From Brenneria izadpanahii (GTDB taxonomy: Bacteria; Pseudomonadota; Gammaproteobacteria; Enterobacterales; Enterobacteriaceae), in the NCBI RefSeq assembly GCF_017569925.1, contig NZ_CP050854.1, positions 4,216,001 to 4,280,000 of the forward strand: a stretch of DNA of 64,000 bases, written 5' to 3'. The translations under genes and the position numbers were made by a program. Shown piece after piece: positions 35,802-50,300 of the stretch. Within the stretch, counting starts at the first letter, position 1. Each line of letters begins with the position of its first letter. Under the pieces are notes generated by a model. The model ran no database searches and was not told the DNA's origin. It was given only the letters and a program-made list of their open reading frames with translations.

Positions 35802-36572
35802 TCACCGCATCTCGTTGAGGTAAATAAAATGGTCGGTGCTGAAACGGTGATGCGCAAGGATCACCGGCACCGCGCTCTGATCGAAAGAAATTTCGTCAAT
35901 CACCATAATGGCATGGGGTTCGGAGAGTTCGAGCAGCGTCAGATCCTCCGGCGTCGCCAGCACGGCCGTCAACTGTTCTCGTACCGCGGCCACCCGCACT
36001 CCGTAATGTTCCAACAGGAAACGATACAGTAATTCCGGCACCTGCTCCGCTGGCGGGAAATCAGGAAAGTGCAACACCGGCAGCACCATGACTTCATGCA
36101 TGGCGGCGATTCCCTTCACCCGCCGCAAACGCTTCAGGCGGATAACCTGCTCCGAAGGCGAAATTTGCAGTTTGGCGGCCTCATCCGCGCTGGCGATAGC
36201 CACCTGATAATCCAGCAGTTGGGTCGCCGAATGAACCAGAGCGCCGTCTTTGCCATGCAGGCGGAAATATTGAAAGAAATGGCTGAGATTGTGCAGCGGC
36301 GCCCATCCGGTGACTACCGTCCCGGTCTTACGCCGGCGCATCAGCATCCCTTCGTCGGTCAACGCCGCCAGCGCCTTACGCACCGTCCCCACCGAAACGC
36401 CGAAATCCGCCGCCAGCGCCTGTTCCCCCGGCAACACCGAACCTGGCGTCAATTGCCCCATCAGAATGGCTTCACTGATATGGCGTTTCACCACTTCATA
36501 TAAGCGCGCGCCTTCAAATTCATTTAATCGGTGAAAGCGGCTGACTTCCTGTTCATGTTTTTGCTGCACCAT
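35802..36572 (-). CDS. GntR family regulator with UTRA domain
   Basis: Regulator of 256 residues of the HutC subgroup. The winged helix (about 18-85) has LTPGSVLPGEQALAADFGVSVGTVRKALAALTDEGML, and the ligand-binding UTRA domain (about 100-250) has VIRLKRLRRVKGIAAMHEVMVLP and AIMVIDEISFDQ. UTRA regulators bind small sugars, amino acids or phosphonates. It is divergent from the operon starting at 36648 across 75 bases that hold an inverted repeat, so it is probably the repressor of that operon and of itself. Confidence 0.9.
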   Translation of the reverse strand: MVQQKHEQEVSRFHRLNEFEGARLYEVVKRHISEAILMGQLTPGSVLPGEQALAADFGVSVGTVRKALAALTDEGMLMRRRKTGTVVTGWAPLHNLSHFFQYFRLHGKDGALVHSATQLLDYQVAIASADEAAKLQISPSEQVIRLKRLRRVKGIAAMHEVMVLPVLHFPDFPPAEQVPELLYRFLLEHYGVRVAAVREQLTAVLATPEDLTLLELSEPHAIMVIDEISFDQSAVPVILAHHRFSTDHFIYLNEMR

Positions 36573-36610
36573 TACTGATTACCTCTTGACCAAAGGCACT
36601 AACTGAATTA

Positions 36611-36627
36611 TCTATAAACTATATAGA
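36611..36627. promoter_or_regulatory. GntR operator candidate
   Basis: TCTATA-N5-TATAGA, an inverted repeat centred at 36619, lies 21 bases before the M20 gene start, in the short gap between the GntR gene and the operon. Its form fits HutC-type GntR operators. Confidence 0.65.
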
Positions 36628-36647
36628 AATAAAAAATCGAGTATAGC

Positions 36648-38033
36648 ATGTCGTATAAGAAAAAAATATCGGCGACGTCGTCCAGCGTCACGCAACAACC
36701 ATCCGCGGAACCGCGGGCAGAAACCGCCCATGGTAAAAAACTGGACGCGGCGCTGAAATCACTGCCGCAGGACGAACAAGCCATACTACACGATCTGCGC
36801 GATATGCTGGCGGTCGATACCTGCTTCCCTCCCGGACAGGGTTATCCGGCCTTTGCCGATTTGATGGAAGAAATACTCACGCCTCTGGGATTCGCCTGCT
36901 CCCGCGTCGACGTTCCTGAAGCGTTATGGCAAGTTCCCGACGGCAGCGCTCAGGGCGCGCGAACCAATCTGATTGCCTCGTTGCCGGCAAACGCGGCGGA
37001 AAACTGCAACCTCTACTTTCATGTAGACACCGTTCCTCCCGGCGACGGCTGGCATTTCCCGCCGCTGGCTTTAACGCAGCAGGACGGCAAACTATTCGGC
37101 CGAGGTAGCGCGGACATGAAAGGCACCATCGTCGCCACCCTGGCCGCCCTGCGCGCCGCGCAGCGATTCGATCTGCCTTTACGCTTCAATCCGGTGCTGC
37201 TGCTATGCACCGATGAAGAAGGGGGACTGTACCCCGGCATCCGCTATCTGGCGGAACAACGGCTTTTTCACGGCCACATGCTGAGCTTCAACGGCGGAGC
37301 GGCTCCCCGAATCTGGGCCGGATGCTTCGGCAGTTTCGATCTCGCTATTCAGGTGACGGGACGCGCGGCCCATTCCGGCGATCCGGCGGGCGGCATTAAC
37401 GCCATCGAAGAGAGTCTGCCGTTAATGAACGCGCTGTACGAACTGAAAAAAGAGGTGGAGCGGAGAACCTCGGCCATGCCTGCGCCGCCGCACTATCAGG
37501 GCGCGCCCCTCACTTCCCGCCTCACCATCGCGCTCGCCAAAGGGGGAAGCAAAGGCTCCACCATTCCGGCGCGCTTCGAACTATTGATCAACCGCCGCTA
37601 TTCGCCGGAAGAGACGTTCAACCAGGCGATGGATGAGATCGTCAACTGCATCGAACAGGCGATGTCCGGTTCACGGGCGCTTGCGGTTGAGCATCATCTT
37701 ATCGGCCATCTTGCCCCGGTCAACGATCCGACCGGCCCGCACTGGCCGCGCTGGCTGTCCGCGCTGAGCGTGGGATTTGGTTTCCATGCCGACGATTTCC
37801 GCGCCTGGGGATCATCCACCAGCTCCGATATGGGATGGGTGCAGCAGGCCGGCATACGGGAAATCCTGCTGGGCGGACTGGCGCGCCCGGACAACCATAT
37901 CCATGCCGCCGATGAATACACCACCATGCAGGATCTTATCGCGCTGTCACGCTCGATCCTGGCTTACCTGGCCCACGATTTCGAGCCGGGTCCGACCTTT
38001 GATATCTCCCCACCAGAGAGGAAAGCATCATGA
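36648..38033 (+). CDS. M20 family metallohydrolase (canonical site)
   Basis: Zinc-dependent amidohydrolase of 461 residues, of the ArgE/DapE/CPG2 kind. The metal ligands are all present: YFHVDTVPP (His125, Asp127), GRGSADMKG (Asp156) and CTDEEGG (Glu190 general base, Glu191). An unusual Ser/Thr/Gln-rich tail of about 45 residues precedes the domain; the true start could lie later, since the ribosome site at 36648 is weak. It is the first gene of a seven-gene operon and its stop overlaps the binding-protein start (ATGA). It probably cleaves an amide bond in the imported compound. Confidence 0.85.
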   Translation: MSYKKKISATSSSVTQQPSAEPRAETAHGKKLDAALKSLPQDEQAILHDLRDMLAVDTCFPPGQGYPAFADLMEEILTPLGFACSRVDVPEALWQVPDGSAQGARTNLIASLPANAAENCNLYFHVDTVPPGDGWHFPPLALTQQDGKLFGRGSADMKGTIVATLAALRAAQRFDLPLRFNPVLLLCTDEEGGLYPGIRYLAEQRLFHGHMLSFNGGAAPRIWAGCFGSFDLAIQVTGRAAHSGDPAGGINAIEESLPLMNALYELKKEVERRTSAMPAPPHYQGAPLTSRLTIALAKGGSKGSTIPARFELLINRRYSPEETFNQAMDEIVNCIEQAMSGSRALAVEHHLIGHLAPVNDPTGPHWPRWLSALSVGFGFHADDFRAWGSSTSSDMGWVQQAGIREILLGGLARPDNHIHAADEYTTMQDLIALSRSILAYLAHDFEPGPTFDISPPERKAS

Positions 38034-39631
38034 GCACCGGGAAAACCACTTTAAACCGTCGTCAGTTCATCATCGGTTCATCCTGTTTAGCCAGCGCGGC
38101 CATGCTGCCATGGGCGATGCCGGCGGCTGCGGCCGATGCGGTCAGTTCAACGCCGGCCAACGGGACGCCGCGCCGGGGCGGCGTACTGCGATTCAGCGTC
38201 GATCAGGCCGCCAACGTCATCCATCCTCACCGGGTACGGGTAAACCCGGAATATCTGCTGGCGGAGCTGTTATATAGCGGTCTGACTCGTCTGACGCAGA
38301 ATATGCAGGCGGAAGGCGATCTGGCTGAATCCTGGCAATCCAACCCGGAACTGACGCAGTGGACCTTCAAGCTGCGCAGCAACCTGAAATTTCATGACGG
38401 TTCCGACTGTACGGCGCAGGATGTGGCGGCGAGCTTTGAAGCTATCCTTAATCCGGATAACGCCTCGCCCGCGCTGCATAATGTCGGCCCAATCGACAGC
38501 GTTACCGCCAGCGACGACCATACCGTCATTATCACCACCACGGGCGCTTATGCGGATTTACCCGTCGCGCTGGCCTATCCCGATGCCAAAATTATTCCGG
38601 CGGCCATTGCCCGCGGCGATCTTGAACGCCTCAGTAAAGAGGCGATCGGCACCGGTCCATTTAAACTGTTGTCTTTTGAACCCGCCCGTCAGATCGTCGT
38701 GGAGCGCAACCCCGATTATTACGATCCCGCCCGTCCCTATCTGGACCGGATAGAAATCGTGGTATACCCGGACCCGATTGCGGAAAGCTCCGCACTAAGA
38801 GCGGGCGATACCGATCTGATGATGGCGGCCCAGACGACCGAATTTACCCGGCTATCCCGCACGCCGGGCATTATTCCGCTGCGCATCGCCTCCGGCCAGT
38901 TTTTGAACGTCAACATGGGGTGCGACCAGAAGCCGTTTAATGATGTGCGCGTTCGTCAGGCGCTGGCTCTGTGCGTCGATCGTCAGGCGATGGTCGATTT
39001 TGTCGCCGAAGGATACGGCGCGCCCGGTAACGATTATCCCCTCAGTCCGGCCTATCCGTTTTATAAAGCGATCCCTCTTAAACAGGCCGATTACGCAAAA
39101 GCCAAAGCGCTGCTGGCCGAAGCCGGTTATCCCAATGGTTTGGATCTCACGCTGATTGCCTCCGATAAACCCGCCACTCGTACCCAGTTGGGCATCGCTT
39201 TGCGGGAGATGTGCAAACCGGCGGGGATCAGCATCGACGTCAAAACCATGGCCAACAGCACCTATCTTGATCAGGTATGGAAGAAAAATAACTTCTATGT
39301 GGGTTTTTATAATATGCAACCCACGCCCGACGCGGTGTTTTCCCTGCTCTACACCACGGAAGCGGCCTGGAATGAAACTCGCTGGAATAATCAGGAATTC
39401 GATCGGCAGATCAAGCAAGCCAGAGAGGTCGCCGATCCCGCGCAGCGCAGCGCGCTCTACGCCAGGGCTCAGGAGTTAATGAATGAGCAGGTTCCCTCAT
39501 TGATTCCCACCTTCTTCGATCTGCTGTCCGCCAGCCGCGACTATGTCGCGGGCTACCAGTTGAATCCGCGCGGCGCGGTGTTCCGTCTGGACCACGTGTG
39601 GCTGACCGCCAACGCGCCGGCACGCCGGTAA
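38030..39631 (+). CDS. Dpp/Opp-type substrate-binding protein with Tat signal
   Basis: Periplasmic binding protein of 533 residues of the SBP_bac_5 family (peptides, opines, nickel, glutathione). The N terminus carries NRRQFIIGSSCLA (residues 9-21), a twin-arginine signal, which is uncommon for this family in enterobacteria. Family text follows: RVNPEYLLAELLYSGLTRL, LKFHDGSDCTAQDVAASFEAIL, GTGPFKLLSFEPARQIVVERNPDYY and FNDVRVRQALALCVDRQAMV. It feeds the two permeases that follow. The substrate is not known. Confidence 0.9.
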   Translation: MSTGKTTLNRRQFIIGSSCLASAAMLPWAMPAAAADAVSSTPANGTPRRGGVLRFSVDQAANVIHPHRVRVNPEYLLAELLYSGLTRLTQNMQAEGDLAESWQSNPELTQWTFKLRSNLKFHDGSDCTAQDVAASFEAILNPDNASPALHNVGPIDSVTASDDHTVIITTTGAYADLPVALAYPDAKIIPAAIARGDLERLSKEAIGTGPFKLLSFEPARQIVVERNPDYYDPARPYLDRIEIVVYPDPIAESSALRAGDTDLMMAAQTTEFTRLSRTPGIIPLRIASGQFLNVNMGCDQKPFNDVRVRQALALCVDRQAMVDFVAEGYGAPGNDYPLSPAYPFYKAIPLKQADYAKAKALLAEAGYPNGLDLTLIASDKPATRTQLGIALREMCKPAGISIDVKTMANSTYLDQVWKKNNFYVGFYNMQPTPDAVFSLLYTTEAAWNETRWNNQEFDRQIKQAREVADPAQRSALYARAQELMNEQVPSLIPTFFDLLSASRDYVAGYQLNPRGAVFRLDHVWLTANAPARR

Positions 39632-39643
39632 CGAGGAGGCAGT

Positions 39644-40591
39644 GTGACCGCAAGCTATCTGTTAAAACGATTTTTACTGGTGATTTATACCTTGCTGGTG
39701 GTTTCACTGCTGGTGTTCGGCATTACCCAGTTGCTTCCCGCCGACGCCGCCGTCACCCTGCTGGGACAAAACGCCACGCCGCAGGCGTTGGCGGCGGTGC
39801 GGGAGCGCCTGGGGCTGGATGCCCCGGCCTGGTGGCAATACTGGCAATGGCTCAAAGGCATCGTCCAGGGCGACTGGGGCATTTCCATGCGCAACGGCCT
39901 GCCGGTCGCCCCCACCCTGCTCACCGCCCTCTCCCGTTCGCTGCTGCTGGCGGCCTGCGCGTTGACGCTGATGCTGATTGTCGCCATTCCGCTCGGCATC
40001 TGGGCGGCGATACGGCGGGGGAAAATGGCGGATATGCTGGTCGGCGTACTGTCGTATGTCGGGGTCTCTTTCCCTGAATTCGTTACCGCCACCCTGCTTC
40101 TGCTGCTCTTTGCCGATATCTGGCAGTGGCTGCCCGCCACCGGCTATGTTCCTCTGACGGAAGATCCGATCGGCGGCATTCGCCACCTGATCCTGCCGTC
40201 AGTCACCGTGGCGCTGATTCTGGTGGCCCACGTTTCCCGCATGGTGCGCTCCGAAATGGTCGACGTACTGCAAACCGACTATATCCGGGCGGCCTATCTG
40301 AAGGGGCTATCGCGCCGCCGCATCCTATGGCGTCACGCTTTGCGTAACGGACTGATGCCCACCATCACCATCGTCGCGCTGGATGTGGGCTATCTGCTGG
40401 GCGGCATCGTCGTGGTGGAGGAGATCTTCGCTATCCCCGGCATCGGCAGGGAACTGATCGTCGCCGTGCAATCGCGGGATCTGCCGACCATTCAGGCCGG
40501 CGTCATGATTCTGGCGGCCACCTATTCCATCGTTAATTTCCTGGCCGACGTGGCATATATCACTCTGGATAAACGGATCCATTATGCCTGA
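39644..40591 (+). CDS. DppB-like ABC transporter permease
   Basis: Inner-membrane permease of 315 residues with a GTG start and a GAGGAGG ribosome site. LLKRFLLVIYTLLVVSLLVFGITQLLPADAA and the coupling loop KGLSRRRILWRHALRNGLMP are typical of DppB/OppB. It lies 12 bases after the binding protein and overlaps the next permease gene by 8 bases. Confidence 0.92.
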   Translation: MTASYLLKRFLLVIYTLLVVSLLVFGITQLLPADAAVTLLGQNATPQALAAVRERLGLDAPAWWQYWQWLKGIVQGDWGISMRNGLPVAPTLLTALSRSLLLAACALTLMLIVAIPLGIWAAIRRGKMADMLVGVLSYVGVSFPEFVTATLLLLLFADIWQWLPATGYVPLTEDPIGGIRHLILPSVTVALILVAHVSRMVRSEMVDVLQTDYIRAAYLKGLSRRRILWRHALRNGLMPTITIVALDVGYLLGGIVVVEEIFAIPGIGRELIVAVQSRDLPTIQAGVMILAATYSIVNFLADVAYITLDKRIHYA

Positions 40592-41417
40592 TATCATCAA
40601 ACAGCTTCTTCGATCTCCGCAGGGCGCCGTCGGCAGCCTGATTTTGTTGCTGGCGCTGCTGATGGTATGCGGCGGTAAACACCTTGCCCCCTACGATCCG
40701 GAAAGCCTGTCGCTGCTGGCGCGATATCAGGCGCCCAGCCTGCAACACTGGTTCGGCACCGATCAGCTTGGGCGCGATATTTTCAGCCGCGTTATGTCGG
40801 GCGCCAGAGCGACCATTCTGCTCTCTTTGCTGGCGACGTCGCTGGCCATGATTATCGGCTCCACCATCGGCACCACCAGCGCCTATCTGGGCGGCCGCAT
40901 CGATGAAGCCATCATGCGCACTATGGACGCCATTATGTCCATTCCCAGTTTGCTGTTCGCCCTGCTGATCGTCAGTACGCTGGGCCAGAGCAGCCTGAAT
41001 GCCGTACTGGCCATCACCATCGCCTTTATTCCGGGCATGGTGCGGATCGCCCGCAGCGTCTCCCTTTCCGTGCGCCAGCAGGATTACGTCAACGCCGCCA
41101 TCGCCAGAGGCGAAAATACCGGCTACATTATTGTGCGGGAAATGCTGCCCAATATCGTCGCCCCGATCATCGTCGAGGCCACCATCCGCGTCGCTTTCGC
41201 CATTATGCTGTTCGCTACGCTGAGCTTCCTCGGTCTTGGCGCTCAGCCGCCGGATCCGGAATGGGGACTGATGGTGTCCGAAGCCCGCGCCTATTTTTTC
41301 AACGCTCCGTGGATGATGCTGATCCCCGGACTCGCCATCGCCATCGTCGCCATCGGTTTCAACCTGCTGGGCGACGGCTTACGTGACGTACTTAACCCAA
41401 GGAGCCGCCGCTCATGA
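40584..41417 (+). CDS. DppC-like ABC transporter permease
   Basis: Second permease, 277 residues with about six helices. LAPYDPESLSLLARYQAPSLQHWFGTDQLGRDIFSRVM is the DppC signature, and ARGENTGYIIVREMLPNIVAPIIVEA is the coupling loop. It overlaps the ATPase gene by 4 bases (ATGA). Confidence 0.92.
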   Translation: MPDIIKQLLRSPQGAVGSLILLLALLMVCGGKHLAPYDPESLSLLARYQAPSLQHWFGTDQLGRDIFSRVMSGARATILLSLLATSLAMIIGSTIGTTSAYLGGRIDEAIMRTMDAIMSIPSLLFALLIVSTLGQSSLNAVLAITIAFIPGMVRIARSVSLSVRQQDYVNAAIARGENTGYIIVREMLPNIVAPIIVEATIRVAFAIMLFATLSFLGLGAQPPDPEWGLMVSEARAYFFNAPWMMLIPGLAIAIVAIGFNLLGDGLRDVLNPRSRRS

Positions 41418-43051
41418 CACGGGATACCGCCAACACGCCGGTTCTGTCGGTAGAAAATTACCGTCTTGACTACCTGCTGCCCCAGGGGAATGTGCTGCAC
41501 GTACTGGATGATATCAATCTGCGCGTGCAGCCTGGCGAAGTGGTCGGGCTGGTCGGGGAGTCCGGCTCCGGGAAAACCACGCTGGGCTGGTCCATCATGC
41601 GCTACCTGGCCGCCAATGCCAGAGAGCAAAGCGGCGCTATCCGCCTGCTCGACGCCGATCTCCGTCAAATGCCGCAATCGCAGATCGAATCGTTGCGCGG
41701 CGGGCAGTTGGGGATGATTTTTCAGGATCCCAGCGCCTCCCTGAACCCAACGCTGTCGCTGGGGGAACAGATCACCGAAGTGTTGATTCGCCACCGCCGG
41801 TTGGATCGGCAGCAGGCCGACGAACTGGCGATCCAGTTAATGCAGGACGTTGAGCTTAAACAGCCGCGGGAAATGATGAAACGCTATCCGCACCAGGTTT
41901 CCGGGGGAGAAAAGCAGCGTATTCTGATCGCCGCCGCGTTTGCCTGCCAGCCTAAGTGCCTCATTTTTGATGAGCCCACCACCGCCCTTGATGCGATCAG
42001 CGCGTCGCAAATTCTCCAGCTATTCGAACGCCTGCGCGAAGAAACCGGTGTCGCCGCGCTGTATATCTCTCACGATTTGGCGCTGGTGTCGAAAGTCGCC
42101 GACCGGATCTGCGTGCTGGAAAAAGGCCGCATTATCGAACAGGCGCCGGCTAGGGAACTCTTCCGCCATCCCCGCCATGACTATACCCGCAGTCTGGTTC
42201 GCGCCGCGCCCGATCCCAACTGCCGTTTGCTGACGAATGAAGAGATGATGACCAGGCGCGAACCGCTGTTGAGTCTGGAGAAACTGACGATTTCCTATGG
42301 CCGCCGCGGCCTGTTGGACAAGCTATTGCAACGTTCAAACGGGCAGACCAAAGCCGCGGACGATGTCAATCTGACCATTCACCGTGGGGAAATCGTCGGC
42401 GTCGTCGGCGAGTCCGGTTCGGGAAAATCATCGTTGGCGAAGGCGCTGACCGGGCTGGTGCCGTTCAGCGGCAAGCTGGATTTCCGCGGTTATAGCCTAT
42501 TCGGCTCGGCGGAGATGGATAAGGATTACCGCCGCCGGGTACAGATGATTTTTCAGCACCCGGACGCCTCGCTTAACCCGCGCCAGCGCATCGGCGAAAT
42601 CATTGCCCGCCCGCTGCGGCTATATGGTCTCCCTAAAGGAGAAACCGAGTCGCAGGCGGTTGCCCGGCTGCTCGAAGAGGTGCGCTTGCCGGCAGATATG
42701 GCGCAGCGTTTTCCTCATGAATTATCCGGCGGACAGAAACAGCGGGTCGCCATCGCCAGAGCCTTTGCCTATCCGCCGGAATTGGTGATCTGCGATGAGA
42801 TTACGGCGGCGCTGGATGTCTCGGTGCAGGCCACCATTATTGAGCTATTGCTTAGCCTGCGCCGCCGCTACGGAACGGCCTACCTGTTTATTACCCATGA
42901 CCTCAACCTGATCCGCCAGATTGCCCATCGGGTTGCCGTGATGTATCGCAGCGAGTTGCTGGAGATCCTGCCCGGAGAGGATATGACCGGCAGTGCCAAG
43001 CACCCTTATACGCAAGCATTGTTGGCCGCCGTCCATGTGCCGGAATATTGA
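41414..43051 (+). CDS. Fused DppD-DppF-type double ATPase
   Basis: Cytoplasmic ATPase of 545 residues made of two complete ABC modules. Module 1 (about 10-260) has Walker A GESGSGKTT, signature QVSGGEKQR and Walker B CLIFDEPTTALD. Module 2 (about 278-545) has GESGSGKSS, LSGGQKQR and LVICDEITAALD. DppD and DppF are separate proteins in E. coli; the fused form is common in GsiA and YejF-like systems. It energises the two permeases upstream. Confidence 0.92.
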   Translation: MTRDTANTPVLSVENYRLDYLLPQGNVLHVLDDINLRVQPGEVVGLVGESGSGKTTLGWSIMRYLAANAREQSGAIRLLDADLRQMPQSQIESLRGGQLGMIFQDPSASLNPTLSLGEQITEVLIRHRRLDRQQADELAIQLMQDVELKQPREMMKRYPHQVSGGEKQRILIAAAFACQPKCLIFDEPTTALDAISASQILQLFERLREETGVAALYISHDLALVSKVADRICVLEKGRIIEQAPARELFRHPRHDYTRSLVRAAPDPNCRLLTNEEMMTRREPLLSLEKLTISYGRRGLLDKLLQRSNGQTKAADDVNLTIHRGEIVGVVGESGSGKSSLAKALTGLVPFSGKLDFRGYSLFGSAEMDKDYRRRVQMIFQHPDASLNPRQRIGEIIARPLRLYGLPKGETESQAVARLLEEVRLPADMAQRFPHELSGGQKQRVAIARAFAYPPELVICDEITAALDVSVQATIIELLLSLRRRYGTAYLFITHDLNLIRQIAHRVAVMYRSELLEILPGEDMTGSAKHPYTQALLAAVHVPEY

Positions 43052-43078
43052 TAACTTAATGATAAATAAGAGTACATT

Positions 43079-44302
43079 ATGACATCAGAACAACTGTTGG
43101 CATCCATCGACACCCAATATTGCCTGAATTTTTTGGCTAGCATGGTGCAACATAAAAGCTATAGCGCCACAGACGGCGAACGCAGGTTGGCCGATTATAT
43201 GGTGGAGCAAATGCGGTCCCTGGGATTAAGCGCGGAGCTGCACCCCGTTCCCGGCGAGCGTTACAACGCCATCGGCACGCTGCACGGCGCCGGCGGCGGC
43301 AACAGTCTGCTGTTCAACGGCCACTTGGATACCAACCCCGTCACCGAAGGCTGGACCGTCGATCCGTGGGGCGGCAAGATTGACGACGACTTTATTTATG
43401 GCATCGGCGTCTCCAACATGAAGGCCGGCGACGCGGCCTATTTCTGCGCGCTGAAAACGCTGATTGACGCGGGCGTCAGGCTGAAAGGCGACGTTATCCT
43501 GACTTACGTGGTAGGAGAGTTGCAGGGCGGCATTGGCACGATCGCCGCCATCGAGCAGGGGATCAAGGCTGATTACTTTATCAATGCCGAACCGACCGAT
43601 TTGCAGGCGTTGTCCATGCACGCCGGCTCGCTGATGTTTACCATCGAACTGGTGGGAGATACCCGCCATCTGTCGAAACGGGAAGAAGCGGTCGACGCCA
43701 TCATGGCGGCGGTCGAACTGATCCCGCAAATCAACGCGATGACCTTCTCCGGCGCGAAAAGCCCTGAACATCTGAAAATCAACCGGGCCCACATCGGTAC
43801 GGTGCATGGCGCGCTGGGGCGCGATCTGGAAGAGTGGCGCCCGCCCCAGGTTGCCGATTTCGTTCGTATGAAAGGCTCCGCCCGCTTTGCGCCCGGCCAG
43901 ACCGTGGAAAGCGTGCTGGCCGATCTGCAAGGCAAGCTGGATCGGTTGGTTGAGAAGTTCCCCGGCTTACAGGCGACGCTGTTCGATGACGGCAAAAGGG
44001 ATCGCCCCACCATGCTGCCGTTTGAAGTCTCATCCGATTCACGCATTGTGCAGGCGGTCAATCGGGCCTATCAGACCGTTCGCGCGGAAAAACAGCCCAC
44101 CGGCGCGATTACGCCTCCGGCCTTCTACGGCACCGACGCCGCCCACTTCTACCAGATGTTGGGCATGGAGGGCATCGTCTGCGGCCCAGGAGGAAAATTC
44201 AATACCATGCCGGACGAACGGGTGCATATCGCGGATTTTCTCGACATGATCCGCATCTATATGCTGGCGATCCTCGATATCTGCCAGCCCGTGGAGGCCT
44301 GA
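43079..44302 (+). CDS. M20 family protein with altered metal site
   Basis: A 407-residue ArgE/DapE-like protein. The first metal motif NGHLDTNP (His82, Asp84) is kept. At the bridging-Asp position it reads GVSNMKAG (Asn113), and at the Glu-Glu position it reads VVGELQGG (Glu147 then Leu148), so two usual zinc ligands are changed. The fold and C-terminal TPPAFYGTDAAHFYQMLGMEGIVCGPG are otherwise typical. It may act with one metal ion or on an unusual substrate. The gene follows the ATPase by 27 bases and overlaps the M24 gene by one base (TGATG). Confidence 0.8.
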   Translation: MTSEQLLASIDTQYCLNFLASMVQHKSYSATDGERRLADYMVEQMRSLGLSAELHPVPGERYNAIGTLHGAGGGNSLLFNGHLDTNPVTEGWTVDPWGGKIDDDFIYGIGVSNMKAGDAAYFCALKTLIDAGVRLKGDVILTYVVGELQGGIGTIAAIEQGIKADYFINAEPTDLQALSMHAGSLMFTIELVGDTRHLSKREEAVDAIMAAVELIPQINAMTFSGAKSPEHLKINRAHIGTVHGALGRDLEEWRPPQVADFVRMKGSARFAPGQTVESVLADLQGKLDRLVEKFPGLQATLFDDGKRDRPTMLPFEVSSDSRIVQAVNRAYQTVRAEKQPTGAITPPAFYGTDAAHFYQMLGMEGIVCGPGGKFNTMPDERVHIADFLDMIRIYMLAILDICQPVEA

Positions 44303-45420
44303 TGAGCGACGTAAATCATGCCGCCCTGGCCAGGTTACGAACGGCGATGAGTTCGGCGCAAGCCGATCTCCTCATCGTCGACCAGGGGGAGCTCCTGGCC
44401 TGGCTGACTGGATATAGCGTATCAGAAACCCTGTACCGCGCCTGTCTGGTTCCGGTGCAAGGCGACCCCTGGATGGTGCTGCGCCAGTTGGATGAAGCGC
44501 CTTGCCGCCAAAGCAGTTGGCTGCGGGAGATCGTTACCTTCGACGACCACCAATCGCCCTGGCAATGCGTGGCGGACAGCATAGCGGCAAAAGGATACGG
44601 AAGCGGCAGGATCGCCGCGGACTTCAACTCTTACGGCATGACGGTGCACAACTGGCGGCAGTTGCAAAAATGCCTGCCCGGCTCGCATTGGGTTGATATG
44701 ACCGGCGTCAGCGATCGGTTAAGGCAGGTAAAATTCCCTCAGGAACTGGCCTACCTGCAACAGGCCGCCGATATCGCCGATCGCGCCATGTCGGCGCTGG
44801 CGGAACAGGTCAGGGGCGGCTGGCGGGTACGGGACGCGGCGGCGCTGGCGGCCGCCTGTTTCCTGCGTGAAGGCGCCGACACCGGAGAAACCGGGCCTAT
44901 CGTCTGCTCGCGCAGCGACAACGGCTTTCTGCATAACAGCAACCACGAGCACCGCCTGGCGGCCGGCGATATTCTGCATGTCGAACTGATCCCGAAAGTC
45001 AGGCATTACAGCGCCCGGATTATGCGGCCGATATTTATCGGCCAGCCAACGGAGCAGCAGCAACAGGTGGCGCGGCAACTGATTGAATTGCAGGATCGGC
45101 AGTTGGCGATGATGACCCCGAACACGCCGGCCACTGAAGTGGACGCGTTACTGCGCGAAGGGGTGATGGCTGCGGGATTACGCCGCGCTTACGGCAACGT
45201 CACCGGCTGCGCGTTAGGGTTATATACCCGCACGCCCAGACCCAGCGACTTTTCATACTGCTTTACGCCGGCGGCAAACTGGCAATTGGAAGAGAATATG
45301 GTTTTTCATATGTATGCGTCGGCGCAGGGGATCGCTTTCAGCGAAACGGTGCAGGTGACGCCCCAGGGAGGAAAGCGCCTGAGCCGATTGCCCAGGCAGG
45401 CGTTTATTGCGCCATATTGA
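44302..45420 (+). CDS. M24 (pita-bread) family protein with lost metal ligands
   Basis: A 372-residue protein with an N-terminal creatinase-like domain (about 1-145) and a C-terminal pita-bread domain. Metalloenzymes of this fold need two Asp, one His and two Glu. Here the first Asp is Glu228 (HVELIPKV), the second is Ala238 (HYSARIMRP), and the His is Cys303 (VTGCALGL); only the last Glu (FSETVQVTPQGG) is clear. This is the pattern of metal-independent members such as creatinase. The His-rich FLHNSNHEHR, near the creatinase catalytic His, is kept. Last gene of the operon; a hairpin follows. Confidence 0.8.
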   Translation: MSDVNHAALARLRTAMSSAQADLLIVDQGELLAWLTGYSVSETLYRACLVPVQGDPWMVLRQLDEAPCRQSSWLREIVTFDDHQSPWQCVADSIAAKGYGSGRIAADFNSYGMTVHNWRQLQKCLPGSHWVDMTGVSDRLRQVKFPQELAYLQQAADIADRAMSALAEQVRGGWRVRDAAALAAACFLREGADTGETGPIVCSRSDNGFLHNSNHEHRLAAGDILHVELIPKVRHYSARIMRPIFIGQPTEQQQQVARQLIELQDRQLAMMTPNTPATEVDALLREGVMAAGLRRAYGNVTGCALGLYTRTPRPSDFSYCFTPAANWQLEENMVFHMYASAQGIAFSETVQVTPQGGKRLSRLPRQAFIAPY

Positions 45421-45430
45421 TATATGGCGC
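45409..45430. terminator. Bidirectional hairpin between M24 gene and ribB
   Basis: GCGCCATAT (45409-45417) pairs with ATATGGCGC (45422-45430) around a 4-base loop. It covers the M24 stop codon and separates two convergent genes. Confidence 0.6.
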
Positions 45431-45450
45431 GTTATCTTGAATCAAGAAAA

Positions 45451-46104
45451 TCAGCTGGCTTTACGTTCCGTCGCCTGGCGATAGGCCACGATATCCTCAA
45501 TCGTCAATACCGGCATATTATGCTGTTTGGCGAAGGCGATCACTTCCGGCGCGCGCGCCATGGAGCCGTCATCGTTGGTCAGTTCGCACAGTACGCCGGC
45601 CGGTTTCAGGCCAGCCAGCGTAGCCAAATCGACCGACGCTTCAGTGTGTCCGCCGCGGGTTAATACGCCGCCCGGCTGAGCGCGCAGCGGGAAAACGTGT
45701 CCGGGGTGGCTCAAATCGCTCGGTTTGGCATCGTCGGCAATCGCCGCACGGATGGTGGTAAGACGATCCGCCGCGGAAACCCCGGTGGTGACGCCTTCCG
45801 CCGCTTCGATAGTGATGGTGAACGCGGTTTGATAATGGCTGGAGTTATGCTCCACCATCATCGGCAACTCCAACTGCTGACGGCGCTCTTCCGTCAGGCA
45901 CAGGCAAACAATGCCGCTGCCGTGGCGGATCGTCAGCGCCATCTGTTCTACGGTCATATTTTCAGCCGCAAAAACCATGTCACCTTCGTTTTCACGATTT
46001 TCGTCATCCAGCACCAACACGCCGCGGCCTTGACGCAAAGCATCAAGCGCGTGTTCCACACGTTCAAACGGGCTGCCGAATTCAGAAAGTAATGTCTGAT
46101 TCAT
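45451..46104 (-). CDS. ribB: 3,4-dihydroxy-2-butanone 4-phosphate synthase
   Basis: Riboflavin pathway enzyme of 217 residues that makes dihydroxybutanone phosphate from ribulose 5-phosphate. The signature [16 protein letters not shown] (magnesium and substrate site) and [24 protein letters not shown] are conserved. It is the stand-alone ribB of enterobacteria. An FMN riboswitch about 145 bases upstream controls it, as in E. coli, and the divergent neighbour is ubiK as in E. coli. Confidence 0.96.
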
Positions 46105-46248
46105 GGTAAAAAAACCTCAATGTTAATATGGATTACCAGAACCAGGGCGAGATTAAGGAGCCGCCATCGCAACAAGCTGCGTTGCAATGACTAAAAAATA
46201 ACGCGAGTGGATATAATTATATAAAAATATAACTACCCGACAGGTACC

Positions 46249-46437
46249 GTTACTCTCTCCCGTCCGGACTCTAACCGTCGGCTCCGGAATTACACCGGAT
46301 CTGCTGACCTCACGCTGGAAAACCAAACTATTCGCCGGTAAACCAACAGTGAGCGCTCGCGGGCTTCCAACGCGTATATAACAATATATATACGGCTGGT
46401 TTACCGCCGGTGGGGAATTACACCCCGCCCTGAGAAT
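46249..46437 (-). promoter_or_regulatory. FMN riboswitch (RFN element)
   Basis: On the minus strand the region opens with AGGGCGGGGTGTAATTCCCC followed by ACCGGCGGTAAA, and closes with GCCGACGGTTAGAGTCCGGA and GGGAGAGAGTAACG. These are the conserved blocks of the RFN aptamer. It lies in the leader of ribB, which it shuts down when FMN is plentiful. Confidence 0.96.
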
Positions 46438-46656
46438 AAGCGGATTTACTATAGCGCCAATGCAGTAACAGGGCAATTGATTAACAACAAGAAATGTGAC
46501 GTTACTCCACGGAATAATCGCCAGGCGCATCAAGCCAGTATCAAGCGGAAACGTGGAAGATGGCGGGGATAAATGTGAGTTTTAGTTTATCCGGCAATCA
46601 ACTAGCATTACACTGAACGCTATGATCATCCGACATAGCATAATCAGGAAAGCGCC

Positions 46657-49305: not shown

Positions 49306-49529
49306 TGCTATCCCAATTGTTCCAATACATTGCCACCGCGGCAAAGACTTATATACCACTAACTCTATTTGCCTGCGTACACAAGTGCAAGTCTGCACGG
49401 TACATTATGACAATAAAGATAGGTACAACGCATTTTTTTGCTGTTTTTTCATCCAAATGCAGACTGGTCAGTATAAAATCATCCCGATATGATGCAGCCA
49501 TGCATAGACAACCAGAGAACAATGACCCC

Positions 49530-50300
49530 ATGCCTTATTTAAAACCGGTTGATAAACCACGCAGCGGCATCCACTATTTTCTTGAAGGATGGCGCCTGAT
49601 TTCGCTGCCCGGCATCCGCCGATTCGTCATTCTGCCTTTATTAGTGAATATTCTGCTGATGGGCGGCGCATTTTGGTGGCTCTTCACCCGCCTGGGCGAT
49701 TGGATCCCGCAGGTTATGAATCATATTCCTACGTGGCTCCAGTGGCTTAGCTATCTTATCTGGCCGATCGCCGTGCTATCCATTTTATTGGTGTTCGGCT
49801 ATCTGTTCAGCACCATCGCCAATTTCATCGCGGCGCCGTTCAATGGCCTGCTGGCCGAACAACTGGAAGCGCGCCTGACCGGCCAGGCGTTGCCTGACAG
49901 CGGCATTCTGGGGATTGCCAAAGATGTTCCCCGCATTATGAAGCGGGAAGTACAGAAGCTGGCTTATTACCTGCCGCGCGCCGTCTTTCTGCTTTTGCTC
50001 TATTTTATTCCCGGAGTCGGACAGACCGTCGCCCCCGTGCTCTGGTTCTTGTTCAGCGCCTGGATGCTGGCCATCCAGTATTGCGATTATCCTTTCGATA
50101 ACCATAAGGTCAGTTTTCCCATCATGCGTCAGGCGCTGCGCCGGCATAAAGTCACCAATATGCAGTTTGGCGCGCTGATCAGCCTGTTTACGCTGGTTCC
50201 CTTTTTAAATTTGGTCATTATGCCGGTGGCGGTTTGCGGCGCGACGGTCCTTTGGGCCGAATGCTACCGCGACCTTTCCGCCATACGTTCAAAACAGTAA
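49530..50300 (+). CDS. cysZ: CysZ sulphate transporter
   Basis: Inner-membrane sulphate uptake protein of 256 residues. Nearly the whole of its helical core matches E. coli CysZ, including [25 protein letters not shown] and [18 protein letters not shown] use the ATG at 49530, which leaves nine residues before PRSG, as in E. coli; another ATG at 49500 and longer frames lack similarity. It is divergent from zipA and 154 bases before cysK. Confidence 0.92.

Follow-up and report, generated by a model that had tools for sequence, protein, structure and literature searches.

Altered metal-ligand places in the M20 and M24 proteins of a GntR-linked import cassette in Brenneria izadpanahii are consistent with scavenging of a small C–N compound

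We analyzed a 64,000-nucleotide stretch of the Brenneria izadpanahii genome (contig NZ_CP050854.1, positions 4,216,001 to 4,280,000; hereafter, the window), which belongs to a single-contig genome of 5.33 Mb. Here, we discuss a seven-gene operon that encodes an ABC importer, two M20-fold proteins (M20a and M20b), and one M24-fold protein, together with the divergent gene of a GntR-family regulator. On balance, we favor the view that this cassette serves the uptake and C–N hydrolysis, that is, the scavenging, of a small amide or cyclic compound, and that it has moved between lineages in this nutrient-uptake role. The substrate class may be amidated, cyclic, or guanidino compounds. An initial annotation made from the sequence alone had arrived at a similar view; its assignment of the M24 protein to the C–N hydrolases is supported, whereas its reading of M20a as canonical is not. 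The features of the locus are as follows, in window coordinates.

35802..36572, minus strand: GntR-family regulator with UTRA domain (Pfam PF00392 and PF07702 above cut-off), divergent in the full-set loci (68 of 80)
36611..36627, no strand: proposed operator TCTATAAACTATATAGA, palindrome TCTATA-N5-TATAGA, proposed from conservation only
36648..38033, plus strand: M20a, M20 hydrolase (Pfam PF01546 and PF07687; residue counts, n = 71; alignments)
38030..39631, plus strand: SBP_bac_5 (Dpp/Opp/Nik-type) solute-binding protein (SBP; Pfam PF00496)
39644..40591, plus strand: ABC permease 1 (PF00528 and PF19300)
40584..41417, plus strand: ABC permease 2 (PF00528 and PF12911)
41414..43051, plus strand: fused double ABC ATPase (PF00005, two stretches)
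43079..44302, plus strand: M20b, core M20-fold enzyme (Pfam, alignments, residue counts, AlphaFold2 model)
44302..45420, plus strand: M24, EutD/DoeA-like pita-bread hydrolase without canonical metal ligands (PF00557, alignments, AlphaFold2 model)
45408..45431, plus strand: terminator-like hairpin at the operon end (pattern scan only; 10-pair stem, short T-rich tail)

The pita-bread fold of the M24 protein was evident from PF00557 above cut-off and from Foldseek and VIA matches. All five of its metal-ligand places are changed (Glu228, Arg239, Cys303, Tyr338, and Ser347), unlike those of PepP, Map, and PepQ from the same genome, which keep the full set (Asp, Asp, His, Glu, and Glu). The initial annotation had correctly read Glu228 in place of Asp, and this residue was found in 81 of 81 aligned proteins. 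It had given Ala238 for the second Asp, but alignment with PepP, Map, and PepQ shows the actual replacement to be Arg239, one residue further on, and it had not mentioned Tyr338 and Ser347, which stand in place of both Glu ligands. Cys303 does sit at the His position, as had been claimed, but it is not a family trait: Tyr occupies this position in 80 of the 81 proteins, and Cys is found in the window protein alone, possibly as a private loss of function. Codon 303 reads TGC (window 45208-45210), and the B. goodwinii protein also has Tyr.

The conserved residues of M24 resemble those of the ectoine hydrolase EutD, with His211, Glu228, and His336 in 81 of 81 proteins and Glu348 in 80. Against the EutD pattern (His, Glu, Tyr, His, Thr-Glu), M24 has Cys303 for Tyr (window only) and Ser347 for Thr. 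The AlphaFold2 model had a mean confidence (pLDDT) of 93.2, and the solved fold closest to it was EutD/DoeA, followed by prolidase; in a plain sequence search of the PDB, prolidase scored first. Creatinase, the relative named in the initial annotation, is structurally less similar than EutD (16–17% identity). PMC8739950 describes EutD/DoeA as a cyclic-amidine hydrolase that works beside an M20-type deacetylase. The pairing with an M20 gene recalls EutD/DoeA and EutE/DoeB, as do the top PDB fold match and the shared residues, including Tyr303 in the relatives of M24. However, M24 shares only 20–21% identity with these enzymes and scored 109.2 and 100.7 bits against the NCBIfam ectoine hydrolase models, far under the cut-offs of 613 and 575, and the cassette has another transporter and regulator and two M20 proteins, both with changed ligands. 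With no ligand residue kept, and with fold and residues nearest to EutD/DoeA, sequence and model support the initial proposal that M24 acts as a C–N hydrolase of metal-free type rather than as a peptidase.

Two other groups of M24 genes were seen. A second M24 gene of the same genome (3574484-3575578; L114:8479-14504) follows an SBP_bac_8/Pot-type ABC importer and an RpiR regulator; its product is 44% identical to the operon M24, with the same ligand pattern and Tyr at 303, but no M20 gene was present in the stretch read. Loci L098, L100, and L113 have RpiR-like and permease neighbors in common with it. In L030, L031, L032, and L033, the M24 proteins belong to a different EutD-like subfamily, marked by Ala at 239 and Pro at 338; L030, the only one of the four scanned, scored 230.5 and 303.3 bits to the ectoine hydrolase models, under cut-off.

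Ligand places in M20b were assigned by the carboxypeptidase G2 scheme, and the protein lacks the five-ligand set (His, Asp, Glu, Glu, and His). In the alignment, the bridging Asp is replaced by Asn113 and one ligand Glu by Leu148, as the initial annotation had noted; Asn113 was found in 75 of 76 proteins (one gap) and Leu148 in all 76. His82, Glu147, Glu171, and Thr376 were likewise fixed; a single row is gapped at 82 and 113. The C-terminal ligand His is probably replaced by Thr376 in the segment FNTMPDE, where the alignment is gapped. The dimer-domain His197 is conserved.

This active-site pattern matches that of 5-nitroanthranilate aminohydrolase (5NAA-A), which has His, Asn, Glu, Ile, and Glu at the first five places and whose PDB entries are titled Mn2+- and Zn2+-bound. 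Because a metal-bound enzyme has it, the pattern need not mean metal loss, and the changed ligands do not imply a metal-free M20b. The AlphaFold2 model of M20b was of moderate quality (pLDDT 80.5; 43 sequences) and weakest in the metal-site loops. With this model, Foldseek placed 7uoi (DapE) first and 5NAA-A second, and the VIA-align scores were partly tied (5NAA-A, 36.5; 3pfo, 36.1; 7uoi, 35.1). M20b and 5NAA-A share the M20 fold, Asn for the bridging Asp, and Ile or Leu for the ligand Glu, but they are only 19–23% identical.

M20a keeps four of the five M20 ligands (His, Asp, Glu, Glu/Asp, and His): His125, Asp156, Glu190, and Glu191 were present in 71 of 71 proteins and His419 in 70 (the other row is gapped). 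A Glu or Asp serving as fourth ligand would be looked for within residues 213–221, a segment in which the window protein has neither. Asn215 (by carboxypeptidase G2 alignment) or Gly216 (by ArgE alignment) takes this place in the segment SFNGGAAPR, both residues being found in 71 of 71 proteins, so that the first M20 protein is not canonical as initially described. A MAFFT register puts the fourth ligand at 219 instead, which is Ala in the window protein and Glu in 9 of the 71 rows. The dimer-domain His242 is conserved.

The importer consists of an SBP_bac_5 protein, two BPD permeases, and two ATPase domains, which is the make-up of a Dpp/Opp-type ABC importer, and the regulator joins a GntR helix-turn-helix to a UTRA effector domain, as in HutC-type GntR regulators. 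Although its parts belong to the same families as those of Dpp/Opp/Nik/Gsi importers, the SBP and permeases fell under every listed NCBIfam cut-off; the fused ATPase exceeded a few (NikD and NikE), with both domains counted, which does not tell its specificity. The SBP contains a twin-arginine-like motif, NRRQFI, which we take to be a Tat-type signal.

We investigated the distribution of the cassette by scanning genome contigs of 84,980 species with an alignment of 15 M24 proteins and reading the best 80 of 140 relatives, a sample biased to M24-bearing cassettes since M24 was the query. In 68 of the 80 loci, from alpha- and gammaproteobacteria, all eight genes were present in the same order and orientation, with GntR divergent from M20a-SBP-permease-permease-ATPase-M20b-M24; the neighborhood search that had been suggested for the M20–M24 pair thus found it together with the ABC genes. 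The other 12 comprised five with M24 alone, four partial cassettes (three of which, L103, L106, and L108, lie on stretches of only 6.9, 6.9, and 14.5 kb), one in which the ATPase was not detected, one rearranged, and one of odd order, in which the order comes from open reading frame (ORF) calls and there is no GntR. Across 69 cassettes (the window and the 68), the pairwise distance matrices of GntR, M20a, SBP, ATPase, M20b, and M24 were correlated (r = 0.86 to 0.95), compared with r of at most 0.20 for permuted matrices (200 permutations per pair). No cluster of flanking ORFs (at least 120 aa, those resembling the operon's own proteins left out) within 10 kb recurred in more than 5 of the 80 loci. 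The cassette looks closed, and its three hydrolases should suffice to reach common metabolites. A second full Dpp/Opp-type set lay nearby in 8 of the 80 loci, and an extra transporter-like ORF in 17; the second sets in, for example, L051, L052, L059, and L063 are more distant relatives of the cassette importer. A search of open-licence literature returned no recognizable paper on this gene set.

The spread of M20b is patchy. Within the window's own family, M20b-based sampling found it in 9 of 295 genomes, in 7 of which M24 adjoins. At E ≤ 1e-100, M20b was present in 2 of the 9 genomes of the genus, the window's own among them, which fits horizontal gain or loss, and in 1 of 369 genomes of the class, namely the window's own. 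The closest proteins were those of Brenneria goodwinii (92% identity for M24 and 96% for M20b); the Pseudomonas relatives of M20b are 77–79% identical and chromosomal, and the operon gave no megablast match in E. coli genomes. The G+C content is 59.5% in the operon and 52.8% elsewhere in the window, but the values for third codon positions of the operon genes (0.67–0.74; five measured) overlap those of neighbors (0.61–0.69; three measured), which makes composition weak evidence.

Among 62 plasmid records with M20b, we read 8 hand-picked ones: two had the full cassette with M24, one had it in pieces with M24 pieces, three had cassettes without M24, a Variovorax record had M20b with neither M20a nor M24 in the stretch read, and a Microvirga record had M20b only. 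Since some cassettes do without M24 and one does without M20a, the core likely consists of the importer and M20b, to which M20a and M24 are commonly added. On the Microvirga sp. VF16 plasmid (L118:9008-11218), the solitary M20b lies downstream of a binding protein of the amino-acid type (SBP_bac_3), which hints at an amino-acid-like substrate for M20b. On plasmid p1 of Pseudomonas silvicola (L117), the cassette genes are annotated and were matched in pieces and are apparently broken.

A conserved motif lies between GntR and M20a. Its core, CTATATAG, occurred in 58 of 70 intergenic stretches (the window and 69 loci, with flanks), whereas 200 shuffles yielded 0.26 on average and never more than 2 of 70; these stretches come from related loci and are not independent. 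Once turned, the alpha- and gammaproteobacterial sites agree on the 14-mer TATAAACTATATAG, which was exact in 48 of the 70 stretches. For a genome-wide search, we used 24 genomes hand-picked from among the 80 loci for having the core, so that singleness and not frequency is tested. The exact 14-mer occurred once per genome in 22 of the 24, always within the cassette locus: 18 copies were inside the intergenic stretch and 4 just outside its cut, where ORF calls start early. In Vibrio xiamenensis (L055), a copy with one mismatch lies at the corresponding coordinates; in Halotalea (L074), none is found even when one mismatch is allowed. In the window's own genome, the 15-mer at window 36613-36627 was the only exact occurrence. 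Sites that could be further targets were fewer than control hits: 9 one-mismatch sites lay outside cassettes in the 24 genomes, against 36 hits of a backward control pattern, and in the window's own genome one one-mismatch and five two-mismatch additional sites were found, against 10 control hits. That the exact site is single and located at the cassette suggests a one-target GntR regulator acting through this predicted operator.

Several other explanations should be considered. Ordinary peptide scavenging, in which an importer of di- and oligopeptides would supply three normal peptidases that hold their metals through neighboring residues, is unlikely. SBP_bac_5 importers and proteins of M20 or M24 fold typically serve peptide use, M24 has prolidase as its best PDB sequence match and next nearest fold and bears the public name 'Xaa-Pro peptidase', and its conserved His226, His336, and Glu348 adjoin the lost ligand places. 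However, His336 and Glu348 are common to M24 and EutD, the three peptidases of the genome keep all five ligands where the operon M24 keeps none, and the replacements are conserved across classes, which argues against decay. It is similarly improbable that M24 and M20b are catalytically dead and serve as binding or regulatory proteins: ligand loss is common in pseudoenzymes, Spt16 domains have the M24 fold, and Cys303 of the window M24 is unusual, but the retention of four EutD-like residues of M24 in 80–81 of 81 proteins, and of the M20b general-base place Glu147 in 76 of 76, looks like catalysis.

We also doubt that M20a and M20b form one hetero-oligomer, with the pair rather than each alone as the enzyme, as in the two-subunit p-aminobenzoyl-glutamate hydrolase. 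A dimer-domain His is conserved in both proteins, the 68 complete loci among the 80 contain both genes, and the two have lost different ligands, but M20b is found without M20a in the Variovorax stretch and alone in Microvirga. Moreover, M20 metal ligands all come from one chain, so that lost ligands could not be swapped between chains; a ligand swap between M20a and M20b was dropped on these grounds. Less probable than any of these is an ectoine or hydroxyectoine catabolic cluster, even though the M24 fold is nearest to EutD/DoeA and the adjoining M24 and M20 genes recall the neighbors eutD and eutE. Known ectoine clusters carry TRAP or Ehu transporters, enuR, ssd, and atf, according to PMC8739950 and PMC13188858, whereas no kind of flanking gene recurred in more than 5 of our 80 loci, in a count that included no family-level search for those genes. 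With the family cut-offs missed and no recurrent flanking gene, this candidate was rejected. Two points weigh against the scavenging of a small C–N compound as we propose it: M24 is absent from some cassettes, so that its chemistry alone cannot define the imported compound, and the nine M20a rows with Glu219 speak, in an uncertain register, against a general ligand loss in M20a.

The order and spacing of the seven tightly packed genes agree with the initial annotation, with overlaps of 4, 8, 4, and 1 bases and gaps of 12 and 27 bases between adjoining genes. The hairpin at 45408-45431 could be the operon end, but terminator-like patterns numbered 8 in the region against 7.6 expected from shuffles, which makes this weak evidence. 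The downstream convergent gene (45451-46104, minus strand) was read as ribB from its sequence and from an upstream FMN riboswitch (Rfam RF00050, 106.5 bits; 46248-46441, minus strand), and a Rev42 5'UTR element of soft-rot enterobacteria (Rfam RF02745, 241 bits) lies at 49362-49790 on the minus strand.

If the cassette does serve scavenging by C–N hydrolysis, the GntR regulator would control this operon only, via TATAAACTATATAG, and would be responsive either to the imported compound or to an early product. This compound would be small and amino-acid-like, or probably at least peptide- or amino-acid-like, and its main C–N bond would be cleaved by M20b, which was present in each reduced cassette read, with a metal site of changed make-up. 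M24 may open or cleave a further C–N bond (of a cyclic amidine, lactam, or similar group) without metal, like EutD/DoeA, and M20a may take off an acyl group or an amino acid, perhaps with the help of a single metal. Given that the cassette has no further enzyme, the products would then pass into general metabolism.

Tentatively, the cassette may represent an undescribed, self-contained pathway by which proteobacteria associated with plants and soil break down a small C–N compound not known as a nutrient, with a metal-free M24, a 5NAA-A-type M20b as the core step, an M20a with one Glu ligand exchanged, and a one-target GntR regulator whose operator is common to alpha- and gammaproteobacteria. 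The current database names of the enzymes of this widespread cassette, 'Xaa-Pro peptidase' and 'acetylornithine deacetylase', are probably misleading. The single operator and compact make-up make the question of the substrate directly testable, and the answer would name a small nitrogen compound that rhizobia, Pantoea, Rahnella, and Brenneria use and would reveal how the M20 and M24 folds have been re-tooled away from dinuclear metal chemistry.

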